Assembly: GCF_014204975.1 (NCBI RefSeq)
Contig: NZ_JACHMM010000001.1
Coordinates: 2,976,001 to 3,040,000 of the forward strand
Reading direction: 5' to 3'
Length of the DNA stretch: 64,000 bases
Source: Jiangella mangrovi
GTDB taxonomy: Bacteria; Actinomycetota; Actinomycetes; Jiangellales; Jiangellaceae
In this document: in pieces, positions 3,191 through 52,448 of the stretch
How positions within the stretch are numbered: the first letter of the stretch is position 1
How the letters are laid out: each line of letters begins with the position of its first letter
The notes under the pieces: model-generated
Database searches by the model: none
What the model saw: only the letters and a program-made list of their open reading frames with translations
Told to the model about the DNA's origin: nothing
Position numbers and translations under genes: made by a program

Positions 3191-4012
3191 TCAAAAATCC
3201 ACAACGAGAGCGCCGAGCAGATCGGCGACGAACGCCTCGCCGTCCAACTTCAGGGCGACGACGGTGCCGGGCGGCGATTCCGTGCGGGCGGTGGTGATCC
3301 AGTCGGGCCGCAGCAGCAGCGCCGCGGCCAGTGCGTCGTGGACGGGAGCGACCCGGCGGCCCCACCTGCCCTCGTACGCGTCGATGTACCGCTCGACGAG
3401 GGCCGCGGCGAACTCGGCCCGCGCGGTCCCCGCCGCCCGCAGCCGCCGCACGGCGTCGTCGCCGACGACCACGGTCGAGGTGACGTCCACCCCGACCAGG
3501 ACCAGCCGGGTCCGCGGCGCGGTCAGCACCCGCCGGGCCGCCTCGGGGTCGCGGCGGACGTTCGTGTCGTCCGCGGATCCGCCCATGACCACGACCGACC
3601 GGAACAGCGTCAGCAGGTCCGGCTCGAGGTCCAGCGCCCGCGCGACGTTGGTCAGCGGGCCGAGCGCCAGCAGGTCGTAGTGGCCGGGCCGGTCGCGGGC
3701 GAGACCGGCCAGGAACCGTGCGGCATCCTCGTCGACGACGGTGTGCGGCGGCGTCTTGTCCGCGACGAGGTCGCCCAGACCGTCCGAACCGTGGTGGCCC
3801 GCAGGGTCCACCGGCCCGTCCGCGCCGACCGCGACCGGCACGTCCGCCAGCCCTGCCAGTCCGAGCACGTGCCCGACGTTCGCGACGACCGCCGCGACGG
3901 GCGCGTTGCCGAACACCGTGGTGACGGCGGCCGGCTCACAGTCCCGCGGCCGCCCGGCCAGGTAGAGCAGGGCCAGCGCATCGTCGATGCCGCAGTCGGT
4001 GTCGATCACCAC
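3191..4012 (-). CDS. inosine-uridine type nucleoside hydrolase
   Basis: This protein of about 273 residues should cleave the N-glycosidic bond of ribonucleosides to free base and ribose for salvage. The N-terminal Ca-binding signature IDTDCGIDDALAL begins at residue 3, VVMGGSA lies mid-protein, and the late His-Asp pair PVHDALAA is present as expected. The start is set at GTG 4012 because an in-frame extension would run into the divergent aminotransferase gene. It is slightly shorter than the usual 310 residues. Only 19 bp separate the two divergent starts, so at least one transcript is likely leaderless or one start lies further in. The importer operon follows 168 bp downstream. Confidence 0.87.
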   Translation of the reverse strand: MVIDTDCGIDDALALLYLAGRPRDCEPAAVTTVFGNAPVAAVVANVGHVLGLAGLADVPVAVGADGPVDPAGHHGSDGLGDLVADKTPPHTVVDEDAARFLAGLARDRPGHYDLLALGPLTNVARALDLEPDLLTLFRSVVVMGGSADDTNVRRDPEAARRVLTAPRTRLVLVGVDVTSTVVVGDDAVRRLRAAGTARAEFAAALVERYIDAYEGRWGRRVAPVHDALAAALLLRPDWITTARTESPPGTVVALKLDGEAFVADLLGALVVDF

Positions 4013-4031
4013 CCGCGAGTACCGTGAACCC

Positions 4032-5207
4032 GTGCCACCACGCCGACCCGCGCTCGTCGAGCGGATGCGACCGTTCACGTCGACCATCTTCGCCGAGATC
4101 ACCGCACTCGCCACCCGCACCGGCGCCATCAACCTGGGGCAGGGCTTCCCGGACACCGACGGCCCCGACGTCCTGTTGGAGGCCGCCAGCAATGCCATTC
4201 ACGGCGGGCTGAACCAGTACCCGCCCGGACCCGGCCTGCCGGTGCTGCGCGAGGCGGTCGCTCAGCACCAGAAGCGGTTCTACGGCCTCGACGCCGACCC
4301 CGACACCGAGGTGCTCGTCACGGCCGGCGCCACCGAGGCCATCGCGGCCACGATCATGGCGCTGTGCGAGCCGGGCGACGAGGTCGTCACGTTCGACCCC
4401 GTCTACGACTCCTATGCCGCGTCCATCGCGCTGGCCGGCGCCGTCAAGCGCACTGTCACGCTTCGCTGGCCGGACTTCGGGCTCGACGAGGCCGAGCTGC
4501 GGGCCGCGTTCGGGCCGCGCACGCGCGTCGTGCTGCTGAACACACCGCAGAACCCGACCGGCAAGGTGTTCGACCGCGCCGAGCTCGAGCTCATCGGCCG
4601 GCTGGCGATCGAGCACGACGCCGTCGTCGTCACCGACGAGGTCTACGAGCACATGGTGTTCGACGACGGCGTCCACGTGCCGATCGCGACGCTGCCGGGC
4701 ATGGCGGAGCGCACGGTCACCATCTCGTCGGCCGGCAAGACGTTCTCCGTCACCGGCTGGAAGGTCGGCTGGCTGCACGGCCCGGCCGAGCTCGTCGCCG
4801 CCGCGCGCGCCGTCAAGCAGTTCCTCACCTTCGTCAGCGCCGGCCCGCTGCAGCCGGCCGTGGCGACCGGACTCGGCCTGGACGACGACTTCTACGCCGG
4901 GCTCCGCGACGGGCTGCAGGCCAAGCGCGATCTCCTGGTTGACGGCTTGCGCGCGGCCGGGTTCCCGGTGTCGGTGCCGGGCGGGACGTACTTCGTCATC
5001 GCCGACGCCGCGCCCCTCGGGTTCGCCGACGGCGTCGAGCTGTGCCAGCGGCTGCCCGAGCTGGTCGGGGTCGCGGCGGTCCCGGTGTCGGTCTTCTACT
5101 CCGACCCGTCGGCGGCGCCGTCGCTGGTCCGGTTCGCGTTCTGCAAGCGCGACGAGGTGCTGCACGACGCCGTCGAGCGGCTGGGCCGGCTCTCGTCGCT
5201 CGTATAG
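4032..5207 (+). CDS. class I/II PLP aminotransferase (DapC/methionine aminotransferase-like)
   Basis: This fold-type I aminotransferase of about 391 residues has LGQGFPDTDGP near the N-terminus, NTPQNPTGKVF, the TDEVYEHMVF segment and the PLP-binding lysine in SSAGKTFSVTGWK near residue 234. Arg in LVRFAFCK near the end should bind the substrate carboxylate. The closest family memory is N-succinyldiaminopimelate aminotransferase (DapC) and YbdL/kynurenine-type enzymes, and substrate cannot be read from sequence. Start GTG 4032 is chosen for length. ATG 4065 is the alternative and would give more room for the divergent hydrolase promoter. It converges on the TetR gene 16 bp downstream. Confidence 0.85.
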   Translation: MPPRRPALVERMRPFTSTIFAEITALATRTGAINLGQGFPDTDGPDVLLEAASNAIHGGLNQYPPGPGLPVLREAVAQHQKRFYGLDADPDTEVLVTAGATEAIAATIMALCEPGDEVVTFDPVYDSYAASIALAGAVKRTVTLRWPDFGLDEAELRAAFGPRTRVVLLNTPQNPTGKVFDRAELELIGRLAIEHDAVVVTDEVYEHMVFDDGVHVPIATLPGMAERTVTISSAGKTFSVTGWKVGWLHGPAELVAAARAVKQFLTFVSAGPLQPAVATGLGLDDDFYAGLRDGLQAKRDLLVDGLRAAGFPVSVPGGTYFVIADAAPLGFADGVELCQRLPELVGVAAVPVSVFYSDPSAAPSLVRFAFCKRDEVLHDAVERLGRLSSLV

Positions 5208-5223
5208 CGGCGTCATGGGCAGA

Positions 5224-5730
5224 TCAGTCGAGGGCGAACTCCAGCGCGGCCCGGACGGTGGCCGCCGGGGTGCCGTCGGCGACCTCGAGCAGGGCCGAGC
5301 GCCAGGTCGCGACCAGCAGGACCGAGGCGAGCTGGACGCCGTCGGGCAGCAGCGCGGCGAGGGTGGCCCGCACGCGGTCCGGGTGGTCGCTGGGCGCGGT
5401 CTCGCCGAGTAGTCGGCAGACGCCGAAGCGGGCCGTCGCGTCGAACGCGACCAGCAGCGCGACCCGGGCGGCCTCGCGGCCCGGCGCGCCGATGGTCTCG
5501 GCCGCGCCCTCCATGCGGTCGGTGATGCGCTTCTCGAGGTCGTCGCGGACGACGGTGTACAGCCCGAGCTTGGAGCCGAAGTGGTGGTAGAGCGAGCCCG
5601 TGGTGACGCCGGCCTTCGACGCCAGCTCGGTGACGGTGGCCGCCTCGTAGCCCGCCTGCTCGAAGTGGTGCATGGCGGCCTCGATCAGCCGGGCCTTCGC
5701 AGACCCAGGGACCGGGATCCACTCCTGCAT
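5224..5730 (-). CDS. TetR/AcrR family repressor
   Basis: This 168-residue regulator has a TetR DNA-binding domain in its first 55 residues (GYEAATVTELASKAGVTTGSLYHHFGSK). The C-terminal half is a helical ligand/dimer domain. ATG 5730 has a good ribosome site (GTGAGG) and is preferred to the ATG at 5763, which would place coding sequence over the operator-like repeat. It lies directly downstream of a small membrane-protein gene on the same strand, which is its likely target or partner. Confidence 0.88.
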   Translation of the reverse strand: MQEWIPVPGSAKARLIEAAMHHFEQAGYEAATVTELASKAGVTTGSLYHHFGSKLGLYTVVRDDLEKRITDRMEGAAETIGAPGREAARVALLVAFDATARFGVCRLLGETAPSDHPDRVRATLAALLPDGVQLASVLLVATWRSALLEVADGTPAATVRAALEFALD

Positions 5731-5739
5731 GGTCCTCAC

Positions 5740-5775
5740 CGTAACACCCTGCCGGTTCGTCATAACAGGGTTACG
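5740..5775. promoter_or_regulatory. candidate TetR operator
   Basis: CGTAACACCCTG (5740-5751) is mirrored by CAGGGTTACG (5766-5775), with one extra base in the left arm. The dyad lies immediately before the TetR start and touches the stop of the upstream membrane gene, which suits autoregulation. Assignment is by position and symmetry only. Confidence 0.4.
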
Positions 5776-6322
5776 GCGTGTGCTGCGGGGCCGCGCGGCG
5801 CACCCGGCCCCAGGGCTTGAAGACGGACAGCAGGTAGGCCACCAGCAGCAGCGACGTCGACACGATGGGCGGGTAGACCATGCCGCCGGGGTCCGGCAGC
5901 GTGCCCCCGCTCCCCAGCAGCCGGCCCTGCTCGGCCGCCTCCTGCACGCCCGGCCGCAGCGCCAGCAGCACCAGCGTCGACAGCAGCACGTTGAGGCACA
6001 GCTTGATCGCCACCCACCAGAACCGCACCAGCCCGTACTTGCTGCCCAGGCCCAGCAGGACCCCGCTGGCCAGGCACACCAGGCCGGCGGTGGCCATGGG
6101 CCAGACGGCGAACAGCTCCACCGCCTGGTAGGTCATCGCGCGGGTCTCGTCGGAGTCCGTGCGGATGGCCGTGAAGACGAGCACCGCCATGACGATGTCC
6201 ATGCCGAACCAGGTGCCGGCGGACAGGATGTGCGTGACCAGCACGGCCTTGCGCGGGCGGCCGGTCAGCCGCCAGGGCCTGCTGGTCGCCGACGGCGTCT
6301 CGGTGCGTGTCGTGATCGTCAT
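5771..6322 (-). CDS. four-helix membrane protein, function unknown
   Basis: This 183-residue protein has a short polar N-terminus and then four predicted membrane helices. They begin at about residues 28 (AVLVTHILSAGTWFGMDIVM), 72, 100 and 150. It resembles uncharacterised actinobacterial membrane proteins of the DUF2269 kind. The ATG at 6322 fits a mature N-terminus, since upstream in-frame sequence is not hydrophobic and is atypical. It shares its strand with the TetR gene that follows after about 40 bp, so the two probably form a regulated pair. No catalytic motif is seen. Confidence 0.75.
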   Translation of the reverse strand: MTITTRTETPSATSRPWRLTGRPRKAVLVTHILSAGTWFGMDIVMAVLVFTAIRTDSDETRAMTYQAVELFAVWPMATAGLVCLASGVLLGLGSKYGLVRFWWVAIKLCLNVLLSTLVLLALRPGVQEAAEQGRLLGSGGTLPDPGGMVYPPIVSTSLLLVAYLLSVFKPWGRVRRAAPQHTP

Positions 6323-6437
6323 GCCGTCCACCTTGTCGGCCGCAGCCGTCGCCGTCGTCGCCCATGCTGCGTATTCGCGGCTACGCCCGCCTGCGTACCG
6401 GGACGACGACGGTGTGTCGACGAGCACGCCGGACTAG

Positions 6438-8659
<2,222 letters not shown>

Positions 8660-25799: not shown

Positions 25800-26040
25800 G
25801 GTTCGGCGGGGGCCCGTGTGGTTGTGCGGGATTCTCCCGTCCCCCTGCTGCCCATTCTCTTAGCCGCGAACGGTCGCCTCAAGTCCGCGCGCTCTGTGTT
25901 TGGGTGCCGTCGAGGTGGGGCGCGCGTACTTGACCCGCCCGCTCGCGGCCTAAGAACGGGCAGCTATCAGGGGGACGGGGGGAGTCTGGCGACGGGTGGG
26001 TGGTCGGCGGGCCCGCACCTTTCGGGGTGTTGCTGGGCCG

Positions 26041-26104
26041 CCACCACGATTACCCGAGCCTCGACACGCCTGCAATCGTGTTGGGGCTCGGGTAATCGTG
26101 GTGG
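26041..26104. repeat. 20-bp perfect inverted repeat in a 458-bp gene-free gap
   Basis: The arm at 26041-26060 is the exact reverse complement of GGCTCGGGTAATCGTGGTGG (26085-26104). The 24-nt loop contains a second small stem (ACACG/CGTGT). It sits in the gap 25800-26257 between a lipoprotein gene and pcrA, both on the plus strand. The rest of the gap shows no gene. TAGGCT at 26205-26210 may be the pcrA -10 box. Confidence 0.85.
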
Positions 26105-26257
26105 TGTAGGGGATCGTTGACCTCATCCCCCCATCAGAACCTCAGAACCATCGAACGGGCGTTCGTAAGCGTGTTCGGGCGGAGTCTGTCGGCGGACGGG
26201 CATAGGCTGGGTCCGCCAGCGCCAAGCGAGTGAGAAGGCGAGTGTGACCCGCCGGCA

Positions 26258-50170: not shown

Positions 50171-51502
50171 ATGCCAGCCGAGGACCTGATCGCCGGCCGC
50201 ACGTCGCGTGACATCGCGGACAGCGTCGAGGCGGCCGTCGAGGCCGGGCGGCTCGTCGAGGCCGAGCCGCTGCCGTCGGTGCGCGGGCTCGCGTCCCGGC
50301 TCGGCGTCAGCCCGACGACGGTGTCCGCCGCCTACCGCGACCTGCGGTTGCGCGGCGTCGTCACCAGCGAGGCGGGCCGGGTCACGCGGGTCGGGGTGCG
50401 GCCGGTCAGCCGGGCGCAGCAGTTCGGCCCGGTGGCGCCGGGACTGCGCGACCTCAGCGACGGCAACCCCGATCCGCGGATGCTGCCGGACGTGGCCGCG
50501 GCGCTCGGCGGGCTCGAGGTCCCGCGGTTCCTGTACGGTGCGCCGGCCGTCCTGCCCGAGCTGGCGGAGATCGCACTGGACCAGTTCGGCGACCTTCCCG
50601 CGTCGTTGCGCTCGCAGGCCGGCCCGGTCGCCGTCGTCGGCGGGGCCATGGACGGGGTCGAGCGGGTGCTCGCCAGCCGGGCCCGGCCGAACGACCGCAT
50701 CGCCGTCGAGGACCCCGGCTACCCGGGCGTGCTCGAGCTGGTGCGGTCGATGGGCATGGTCCCCGTCGGGGTCGCCGTCGACGACTCCGGGCCGGTGCCG
50801 TCGTCGCTCGCGGCCGCACTCGAGACGCGGGTGGCGGCGGTCGTCGTCACGCCGCGTGCGCAGAACCCCACCGGTGCCGCCGTCGACGCCGCGCGGGCCC
50901 GCGAACTCCGCGCCGTGCTCGACGCCCACCCGGACGTGCTGGTCGTCGAGGACGACCACGCGTCGCTGATCGCCGGCGCCCCGTACGTCTCGGTCAGCGC
51001 CGGGCGGCGGTCGTGGGCGGTCGTGCGGACGACCAGCAAGGTGCTCGGGCCGGACCTGCGCACCGGTTTCCTGCTCGCCGACCCGCGGACCGCCCGCCGG
51101 GTCGCGGAGCGGCAGCTGGTCGGGGCCGGCTGGGTGAGCCACGTGCTGCAGCACCTGGTGGTACGCCTCCTGTCCGACGACGATGTCCGCACCGGCATGC
51201 GGCTGGCCGGCGACCTCTACCGGGCGCGGCGGCAGTCGTTGCTGGGCCGGCTGGCCGAGCGGGGGATCGCGGCGCGCGGCCGCTCCGGCCTGAACGTCTG
51301 GGTGCCGGTGCCGCACGAGGTGCCGGTGGTGCAGGCCCTGCAAGATCGTGGTTGGGCGGTCCGGGCCGGCGAGCCGCACCGCACCCACAGCGAGCCGTTC
51401 GTCCGCATCACGACGGCGACCCTGGGGTCCGACGAGGCCGAGCGGTTCGCTGGGGATCTCGCCGCCGTGCTCGGGCGGCCCGGCCGCACCCGCCTCGCCT
51501 GA
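50171..51502 (+). CDS. MocR-type GntR/aminotransferase-fold regulator
   Basis: This 443-residue PLP-sensing regulator has an N-terminal GntR winged helix (PLPSVRGLASRLGVSPTTVSAAYRDLR, residues about 35-65) and a fold-type I aminotransferase domain. That domain has the PLP lysine in RTTSKVLGPDLR near residue 295, TPRAQNPTGAAV and the substrate Arg in FVRITTATL. The palindromes at its start and between paiB-like and amidohydrolase genes suggest it controls all three. MocR proteins often govern vitamin B6 or amino-compound metabolism. The effector here is unknown. Confidence 0.92.
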   Translation: MPAEDLIAGRTSRDIADSVEAAVEAGRLVEAEPLPSVRGLASRLGVSPTTVSAAYRDLRLRGVVTSEAGRVTRVGVRPVSRAQQFGPVAPGLRDLSDGNPDPRMLPDVAAALGGLEVPRFLYGAPAVLPELAEIALDQFGDLPASLRSQAGPVAVVGGAMDGVERVLASRARPNDRIAVEDPGYPGVLELVRSMGMVPVGVAVDDSGPVPSSLAAALETRVAAVVVTPRAQNPTGAAVDAARARELRAVLDAHPDVLVVEDDHASLIAGAPYVSVSAGRRSWAVVRTTSKVLGPDLRTGFLLADPRTARRVAERQLVGAGWVSHVLQHLVVRLLSDDDVRTGMRLAGDLYRARRQSLLGRLAERGIAARGRSGLNVWVPVPHEVPVVQALQDRGWAVRAGEPHRTHSEPFVRITTATLGSDEAERFAGDLAAVLGRPGRTRLA

Positions 51503-51530
51503 CCGCCACACCCGCACGACGACCCCGGCC

Positions 51531-51773
51531 CGTCTTCGATGGTGTGCCCCGTCTTTGATGGTGTGGCCCGTCCTTGATGGCGAGGCCCGTCCTCGATGGC
51601 GAGGGTCGTCTTCAATAGCGTCAGCCGTCTTCACTAGCGAGAGTCGTCTTCTGCGCGCGATCCGGGCCGCAGAGGACGGTTCCCGCTAGTGAAGACGGCC
51701 TGCGCTAGTGAAGACGGCCTGCGCGATCGAGGACGGCCTGCGCTATTGAAGACGAGCCGCGCCAGTGAGGACG
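51531..51773. repeat. mirrored array of 19-bp repeats
   Basis: Seven CGTC(T/C)T-type units start at 51531, 51550, 51569, 51588, 51607, 51626 and 51645, exactly 19 bp apart. Six inverted units end at 51678, 51697, 51716, 51735, 51754 and 51773, again 19 bp apart. All pairs share the centre 51661.5. The unit is close to CGTCTTCAATAGCG. The array fills the 283-bp gap between the convergent MocR and PaiB-like genes. RNA from either strand would fold into one long hairpin. Confidence 0.95.
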
Positions 51774-51785
51774 GCTGGGCGGCGG

Positions 51786-52448
51786 TCAGGCGAGGCGGAG
51801 GACGTCGGCCATGAGGGCGGCCAGTTCGCGGTCGCGGCCGGACGGGCTGGCGGCGAACGAGTCGTGCACCCGGCGCTGGGTCTCGGGCGTCTTGTTCTGG
51901 CTGAGCTTGAACGTGCTGCGGACGTCCTCGACGGTGATCTCGAACGGCGTGATGCCGGCGAGCAGCTTCTCGATGTAGTCCAGCGACGACGTCGGGTCCC
52001 AGCCGGTGCCGGCGTTGGACTCCGTGGCGTCGATGCTGGCCCGCATGATCGCCAGCGCCTCGTCCCGGTCGTCGACCACGCGAACGGGGCCGCTCAGGTG
52101 CACGGCGGCGTAGTTCCAGGTCGGCGCCTGGGGCTGCGACGGATCGTAGAGCGTCGGCGATACGTAGCCGTCCGGCCCGAGGAACACCGCCAGCGCGTAC
52201 CCGGCCGCCCGCAGCGCCGCGCCCTGCGGGTTCGTCCGCGCCAGGTGCCCGATGACCGTCGCGCCGAGCAGCGGCTCGTCGTCGACCGGCGGGCCGTCCG
52301 CGCCCGGTCGACGCAGCATCAGCACGTGTGTCGCCACCGGAGCAGCCGAAGCGCCCACGCCGCAGATGACCAGCCCGAACGGGTTCTCGCGGACCAGGCG
52401 TCCCTCGCGCTCGGGCAGGTCGGCGCGGTAGTGCCGAGGCGTGTGCAT
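51786..52448 (-). CDS. PaiB-like FMN-binding protein
   Basis: This 220-residue split-barrel flavin-binding protein belongs to the PaiB / FMN-binding negative transcriptional regulator family. It has the N-terminal MHTPRHYR type start, FGLVICGVG, GHLARTNPQ and ALAVFLGPDGYVSPTLY, with WNYAAVHLSGPVRV. Despite the name, DNA binding is not evident. Its promoter holds a copy of the MocR palindrome. It converges on mocR, with the 19-bp array between the stops. Confidence 0.87.
   Translation of the reverse strand: MHTPRHYRADLPEREGRLVRENPFGLVICGVGASAAPVATHVLMLRRPGADGPPVDDEPLLGATVIGHLARTNPQGAALRAAGYALAVFLGPDGYVSPTLYDPSQPQAPTWNYAAVHLSGPVRVVDDRDEALAIMRASIDATESNAGTGWDPTSSLDYIEKLLAGITPFEITVEDVRSTFKLSQNKTPETQRRVHDSFAASPSGRDRELAALMADVLRLA

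Follow-up and report, generated by a model that had tools for sequence, protein, structure and literature searches.

Array anatomy and flanking genes

The window, a 64,000-nt stretch of a 7.16 Mb single-contig Jiangella genome, carries a mirror-symmetrical array of 19-nt units that separates two genes, one MocR-like and the other an FMN_bind_2 gene. The array occupies the convergent gap at 51503–51785, with seven forward and six reverse units arranged around a central hairpin (Table 1). The flanking stop codons face each other at 51502 and 51786. The initial annotation, made from the sequence of the window, had described these unit numbers, a common centre at 51661.5, and a convergent intergenic gap, all of which were confirmed. 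The CGTC of the left-arm units begins at positions 51531, 51550, 51569, 51588, 51607, 51626, and 51645. The arms are inverted and 76% complementary (51549–51655 versus 51668–51774), and the central hairpin is the best-conserved part within the array family.

Table 1. Coordinates of the array and of neighboring features in the window.
Feature	Position	Strand	Basis or remark
MocR-like gene, GntR and aminotransferase class I/II domains	50171–51502	+	Pfam; stop 24 nt ahead of array
18-nt perfect inverted repeat, left copy	51490–51507		Across MocR-like gene stop codon
Left arm, seven forward 19-nt units	51527–51655	+	Self-match, unit reading
Central hairpin, innermost forward and reverse units with short loop	51645–51678		Family alignment
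Right arm, six reverse 19-nt units	51668–51774	−	Innermost unit common to central hairpin
18-nt perfect inverted repeat, right copy	51781–51798		Across FMN_bind_2 gene stop codon
FMN_bind_2 gene	51786–52448	−	Pfam; its end 11 nt past array

The annotated period of 19 also held, with self-match values at lag 19 of 0.75 in the left arm and 0.71 in the right arm versus maxima of 0.43 and 0.45, respectively, in 5000 base shuffles per arm. The units had been called exact and are instead only alike; mirror partners for units 1 to 6 agree at 13, 16, 15, 15, 13, and 10 of 19 bases. The closest unit pairs in the window are neighbors within one arm (18, 18, and 17 of 19), with other neighbors down to 9. 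The 18-nt repeat at both stop codons may have arisen as an inverted copy when the template was switched at the foot of the palindrome; template switching has been proposed as a source of hairpins (PMC8794818). Alternatively, it may stem from the loss of a short terminal piece of the FMN_bind_2 gene, which runs on some codons further in relatives.

The RNA of either strand is predicted to form a single long and very stable hairpin, as had been suggested for both transcripts along with folding as the check. Folding energies are −198.1 kcal/mol (z −12.9) for one strand and −175.3 kcal/mol (z −10.3) for the other, each better than all 200 dinucleotide shuffles. When single 19-nt units of five types were folded, four reached −0.3 to −1.1 kcal/mol and one variant −6.6 kcal/mol. 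Judged as an intrinsic terminator, the array has the GC-rich hairpin and no T-run following it. A simple terminator scan gave no match in the array, its sole match lying within the FMN_bind_2 gene (51872–51891). With arms of about 110 nt, no T-run, and similar arrays at other loci, the array is not an ordinary terminator, in agreement with the initial annotation. An Rfam scan of six loci (60,006 bases, with the window array as L069) yielded nothing at the gathering score; the only match was MIR4374, at 29 bits versus a gathering score of 105.

The array family in Jiangella

The genome search proposed in the initial annotation, for which an absence of arrays elsewhere would have pointed to chance, recovered many. 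A two-mismatch pattern search found 87 places in the window's own genome versus 12 for a reversed control, and blastn with the window array gave 69 matches at E up to 10, counting both strands. Thirty own loci picked from these matches were fetched, and in 25 the core is flanked on one or both sides by one or more additional units, most of these loci having two or more per side. Units beyond the core number 6+5 in the window, 8+2 in L061, and 4+4 in L088. The other five (L066, L077, L086, L089, and L090) are partial or single-unit matches, with one covariance-model match in L077. Every uninterrupted own array (21 of 21) has both arms, as does every array examined in the relative G011 (12 of 12), in a search that favored two-armed arrays. 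Five own arrays (L061, L069, L070, L079, and L088) have no repeated flank adjoining them, and these overlap a stop codon or start no more than 24 nt from one; in L079, it is a detached piece that does so.

Array placement was counted for 19 own arrays, leaving out those with a transposase neighbor (L064, L065, L071, L073, L083, and L085). Eleven lie between convergent genes, six between tandem genes, and two between divergent genes, and at least one gene 3′ end faces 17 of the 19, which is the placement of a dispersed, behind-gene palindromic repeat. The convergent background is 56 of 279 adjacent gene pairs (20%), with array-bearing pairs included (binomial p 3e-4). The anticipated position between convergent genes is therefore frequent and not universal. 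Across all 30 own loci, including transposase-flanked and partial ones, the counts are 17 convergent, 11 tandem, and 2 divergent. Genes were called with a home-made coding-score script, and the Pfam scan covered 37 of the 38 genes flanking the 19 counted arrays, the exception being the left gene of L075. The strand of the left-hand genes of L067, L068, L072, L074, and L087 was taken from the coding score because these genes have no Pfam domain. Arrays of the family also lie behind genes unrelated to the MocR-like/FMN_bind_2 pair.

A covariance model was built on 19 of the 25 own arrays. In each genome it scored the best 150 first-look candidates out of thousands, and the counts may therefore be low. 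At E ≤ 0.01, rows were obtained in at least 9 of 12 Jiangella genomes, own included. Counting both strands, these numbered at least 58 in the own genome, 89 in G009, 46 in G008, 32 in G011, and 22 in G001, followed by at least 5 in G003, 4 in G002, 1 in G006, and 1 in G007. The rows of G003, G006, and G007, seen at this limit only, may be due to chance. At E ≤ 0.001, the model matched at least 7 of 22 genomes of the family, comprising 6 of the 12 Jiangella genomes and one genome of another genus (G015, two rows, best E 6e-6). Short blastn matches to the array were found beyond the genus in G023, G055, and G068. The arrays form a family clearly seen so far in Jiangella only and are probably largely genus-specific. 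The literature covered on such repeats and on Jiangella, which for the genus is narrow and mostly excludes subscription journals, describes no such arrays. The available sections of a Jiangella genome paper mention CRISPR repeats (none) and likewise contain no such arrays (PMC5292007).

Of the 25 own arrays, 17 have an E motif no more than 180 nt away; the motif is part of a larger modular repeat that is itself dispersed. This composite consists of palindromic modules in fixed order between two inverted E palindromes, and individual modules are present in some copies and absent from others. The E core occurs at 74 places in the own genome with at most one mismatch, versus 0 for the control, and 33 fetched E loci away from arrays are convergent (16) or tandem (17), with no divergent case. 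Composites at L205, L206, L212, L217, L221, L227, and L228 contain hairpin modules of the GATGATCATC, TTACTACCGC, and GGAGGGAGTTCTCC types, each optional. The window itself has an E palindrome and part of a composite at 25800–26150, without a 19-nt array. A composite in the recX gap of the own genome is lacking, as read by eye, in nine readable congeners, with G011 and G002 unreadable there; the recX gap of G009 holds an array-like stretch. No target-site duplication, a criterion for miniature inverted-repeat transposable elements (MITEs), could be named at the recX composite. The transposase domain of RAYTs (Y1_Tnp, PF01797) had no match in the 12 Jiangella genomes at E ≤ 0.001, with 5 of 14 control genomes positive.

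Insertion sequences interrupt several arrays. Near-identical IS110-type elements (406-aa transposase) lie in L065 (about 3471–4989) and L071 (about 5080–6600), where they interrupt diverged arrays and abut the same CTAG of an array unit. The copies are 99% identical over 1611 bp, compared with 83–88% for their flanks, which points to two separate insertion events. In L073 and L083, DDE_Tnp_1 elements likewise abut the CTAG of an array unit. The IS110-type insertions resemble those of insertion sequences that target repetitive extragenic palindromes (REPs) (PMC1525189).

Orthologous gaps and change within the arms

The closest named relatives of the window FMN_bind_2 protein are from Jiangella species, with J. 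ureilytica first (82%), and 11 of the 12 Jiangella genomes carry the gene. Comparison by eye covered the 620 nt that follow it. An array is present there in 2 of 11 species, the own genome and G011 (taken to be J. ureilytica), with near-identical centres. Because 9 of the 11 species have none by this reading, the array at this position appears dispensable. The gap of G010 (L118) is instead filled with tandem 31-nt units of another kind that have an inner GGACGTCC, and that of G008 holds a near-perfect hairpin with 22-nt arms. The gap is about 30 nt or shorter in G001, G002, and G006, and the remaining species have other sequence. On the MocR side of the G011 gap (L113/L296), the MocR-like gene end and a piece of array are apparently duplicated in tandem.

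The rows of G011, at least 32, represent 16 arrays in 13 regions, all of which were fetched. By flanking sequence, six of the 13 regions correspond to own array loci (G011/own: L284/L084, L291/L070 [purE], L292/L079, L294/L088, L295/L087, and L296/L069), the window gap included. At the six shared own places, four arrays are convergent, one is tandem (L070), and one is divergent (L084). The G011 arrays at these places have a different unit sequence and keep the 19-nt step. With core units counted, unit numbers in the window gap (FMN side, then opposite side) are 15 and 3 in G011 and 6 and 7 in the own genome. The purE gap of G011 has a long right arm in 19-nt steps. Behind purE, G006, G007, and G009 have other long palindromes that exceed all 60 shuffles, and G002 has one that barely does.

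Arm lengths are unequal within arrays and differ between species, in 19-nt steps. G011 also has a higher-order period of 38 nt (self-match 0.79 at lag 38 versus 0.66 at lag 19). Since same-arm neighbors are the closest units in the window and this 38-nt period is present in G011, the arms most likely grow by duplication.

The initial annotation had also proposed that paired mirror units co-vary, with the units at 51588 and 51626 best matched by their mirror partners. This holds for 51588 (15 of 19); 51626 is a tie between its partner and two other units (16 of 19), and the best match of 51607 is two places off its partner (17 versus 15). Mirror order in the array did weakly better than other unit orders, with p 0.039 over 720 orders when the core unit was included and 0.23 without it. 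Across 19 own arrays, whole-arm mirror matching was 569 versus 564 for random re-pairing (p 0.35), the RNAalifold covariation term was −0.04, and the observed arm pairing was reached by 130 of 500 shuffles. Pairwise co-variation is therefore not supported as a general rule. Unit 2 alone gave p 0.014 across these arrays, chiefly through one position (18 of 19 versus 10.5 expected; p 0.0008, the lowest among 28 positions tested). The likeness of arms within an array slightly exceeded random pairing in the own genome (0.671 versus 0.644, p 0.009) and not in G011 (0.636 versus 0.654, p 0.96). Own L065, L071, L073, and L083 and G011 L286 were left out of the arm-likeness and consensus comparison, and one of the three arrays of L292 was used.

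The compensatory changes in relatives that had been proposed as a check were found in part. In unit 2 of the six arrays orthologous between the own genome and G011, 84 pairs comprised 10 changed on both sides, 5 on the left, 10 on the right, and 59 on neither. Two-sided change is above expectation (Fisher p 1e-4), and the standard pair is kept in 7 of the 10. When all 32 pairs in the orthologous arrays are considered, pairing is kept in 8 of 17 two-sided changes, and in the spacers in 0 of 5. In the core, the association of two-sided change is not significant (p 0.11). Left arms set against right arms of other loci gave a mean of 5.3 instead of 7 (p 0.16). Because arms from swapped loci do nearly as well, the joint change between species is mostly family-wide drift. 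At many loci the unit consensus differs between the two species, and it does so alike in the two arms; at unit position 14, for example, G occurs in 75% and 77% of units in the two arms of the own arrays and C in 75% and 85% in G011. The family thus drifts in concert, and a locus-specific hairpin code is not supported.

Interpretation and comparison with known systems

The own arrays have hairpin potential and lie preferentially at gene 3′ ends. From this we infer, with middling confidence, that the window array is a member of a dispersed, mirror-symmetrical Jiangella family acting as two-sided 3′-end hairpins. Also in favor are the spread over part of the genus, the six array places kept in G011, the lack of divergent positions among E palindromes away from arrays, the two-sided unit-2 changes, and the other long palindromes behind purE in three further species. 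Transcription through the array from either flanking gene would let the RNA snap into a long hairpin, which could mark or protect the mRNA 3′ end and limit transcription into the opposing gene. Since both arms are built of the same kind of unit and any unit can pair with any unit of the mirror arm, arms can lengthen or shorten without loss of the hairpin. Several observations speak against this reading: the lack of a T-run, the occurrence, by eye, of an array in the FMN gap of only 2 of 11 species, the weak mirror co-variation across own loci, the loss of pairing in most two-sided changes of the orthologous arrays (8 of 17 kept, none of 5 in spacers) with a core association short of significance, and the divergent position of 2 of 19 own arrays, one of which (L084) is among the six conserved places.

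It is somewhat unlikely, though a serious alternative, that the arrays and composites are neutral or selfish DNA that spread without function and is found behind genes because insertions elsewhere were lost. The proximity of the E motif to 17 of 25 own arrays, its 74 core places against none for the control, the recX composite restricted by eye to the own genome among the readable congeners, and the interruption of arrays by IS110-type and DDE_Tnp_1 elements are consistent with such a spread. The six array places common to G011 despite sequence turnover argue against it, as does the presence of two arms in every uninterrupted array examined in either genome, bearing in mind that the search favored such arrays. 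The 12 genomes also gave no match to a Y1 transposase, and no other mobilizing enzyme was identified.

Two readings invoke a protein. A single trans-acting Jiangella factor that binds DNA or RNA might read the 19-nt unit. At gene ends, the arrays would then serve it as sites for loading or stopping on two sides, and a change in the factor would replace the unit type genome-wide; we regard this as tentative and rather unlikely. Quite unlikely, too, is that the unit is the site of a nucleoid- or partition-type protein of Jiangella, which the mirror layout would load from both sides. The strict 19-nt step fits such a site, and the shift of the unit consensus in both arms at many loci is what a changed preference of one protein would produce, but concerted drift may also come from repeat turnover. 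Moreover, a 19-nt step does not correspond to an integral number of turns of B-DNA, the arrays prefer gene 3′ ends, and the binding protein is hypothetical.

Very improbable is a regulatory hairpin specific to the MocR-like/FMN_bind_2 pair, with mirror units co-varying under selection. The wide presence of the FMN_bind_2 gene in the genus and the array shared there with G011 would suit it, but it is largely refuted by the nine species without an array in the by-eye comparison, the same family behind unrelated genes, and a unit-wise co-variation that is not significant without the core unit. That a short inverted sequence expanded locally by chance, as near-identical neighboring units within an arm might have hinted, has practically no probability left; it is refuted by the recurrence of one core and step at 25 loci in a single genome and by further genomes.

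The family shows a repeat design in which symmetry is held by the array rather than the unit, so that arms change in 19-nt steps and the hairpin still closes. The six places shared by two species offer a natural experiment on the origin, spread, and concerted drift of palindromic 3′-end repeats for which no REP-type transposase was found.

Among known systems, REPs and their mosaic groups (BIMEs) are palindromes scattered through intergenic DNA; they usually follow genes, lie between genes in convergent or unidirectional order, and often form inverted groups (PMC3733652), and REPs are targets of insertion sequences (PMC1525189). Jiangella arrays are similarly dispersed, situated behind genes, and hit by insertion sequences. 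They differ in that the unit is 19 nt long and barely folds in four of five types, the symmetry belonging to the whole array. Membership among RAYT-mobilized REPs or BIMEs was rejected for want of a Y1_Tnp match in the 12 Jiangella genomes, and the definition of a REP unit as a 20- to 40-nt stem-loop with a GTAG or CGTC tag does not describe a 19-nt unit with these folding energies. CGTC-REPs, including Neisseria dRS3, start with CGTC, have no known dedicated transposase, and form inverted dimers behind genes; their unit combines an 8- to 9-bp stem with a 4- to 5-nt loop and usually a CCA tail, and pairs in the same direction are negligible (PMC3733652). Jiangella units also begin with CGTC, are mirrored, and lie behind genes, but same-direction tandem units are the rule. 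Assignment to the CGTC-tagged REPs was likewise rejected, as the folds of single units lack this combination of stem, loop, and CCA-like tail.

Modular intergenic repeats, pneumococcal BOX among them, have a fixed module order and a variable copy number of one module. In Jiangella, unlike BOX, the variable module is mirrored, and modules between the two E palindromes come and go. Bidirectional intrinsic terminators are hairpins between convergent stop codons that work in both directions; unlike these, the Jiangella array has no T-run, arms of about 110 nt, a 19-nt internal period, and a dispersed family. MITEs are short non-coding inverted-repeat elements present in many copies, whereas the Jiangella arrays have no demonstrated target duplication or parent transposon and occupy six places common to two species. 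By unit structure and transposase, the arrays are not REPs; in placement, they are REP-like.
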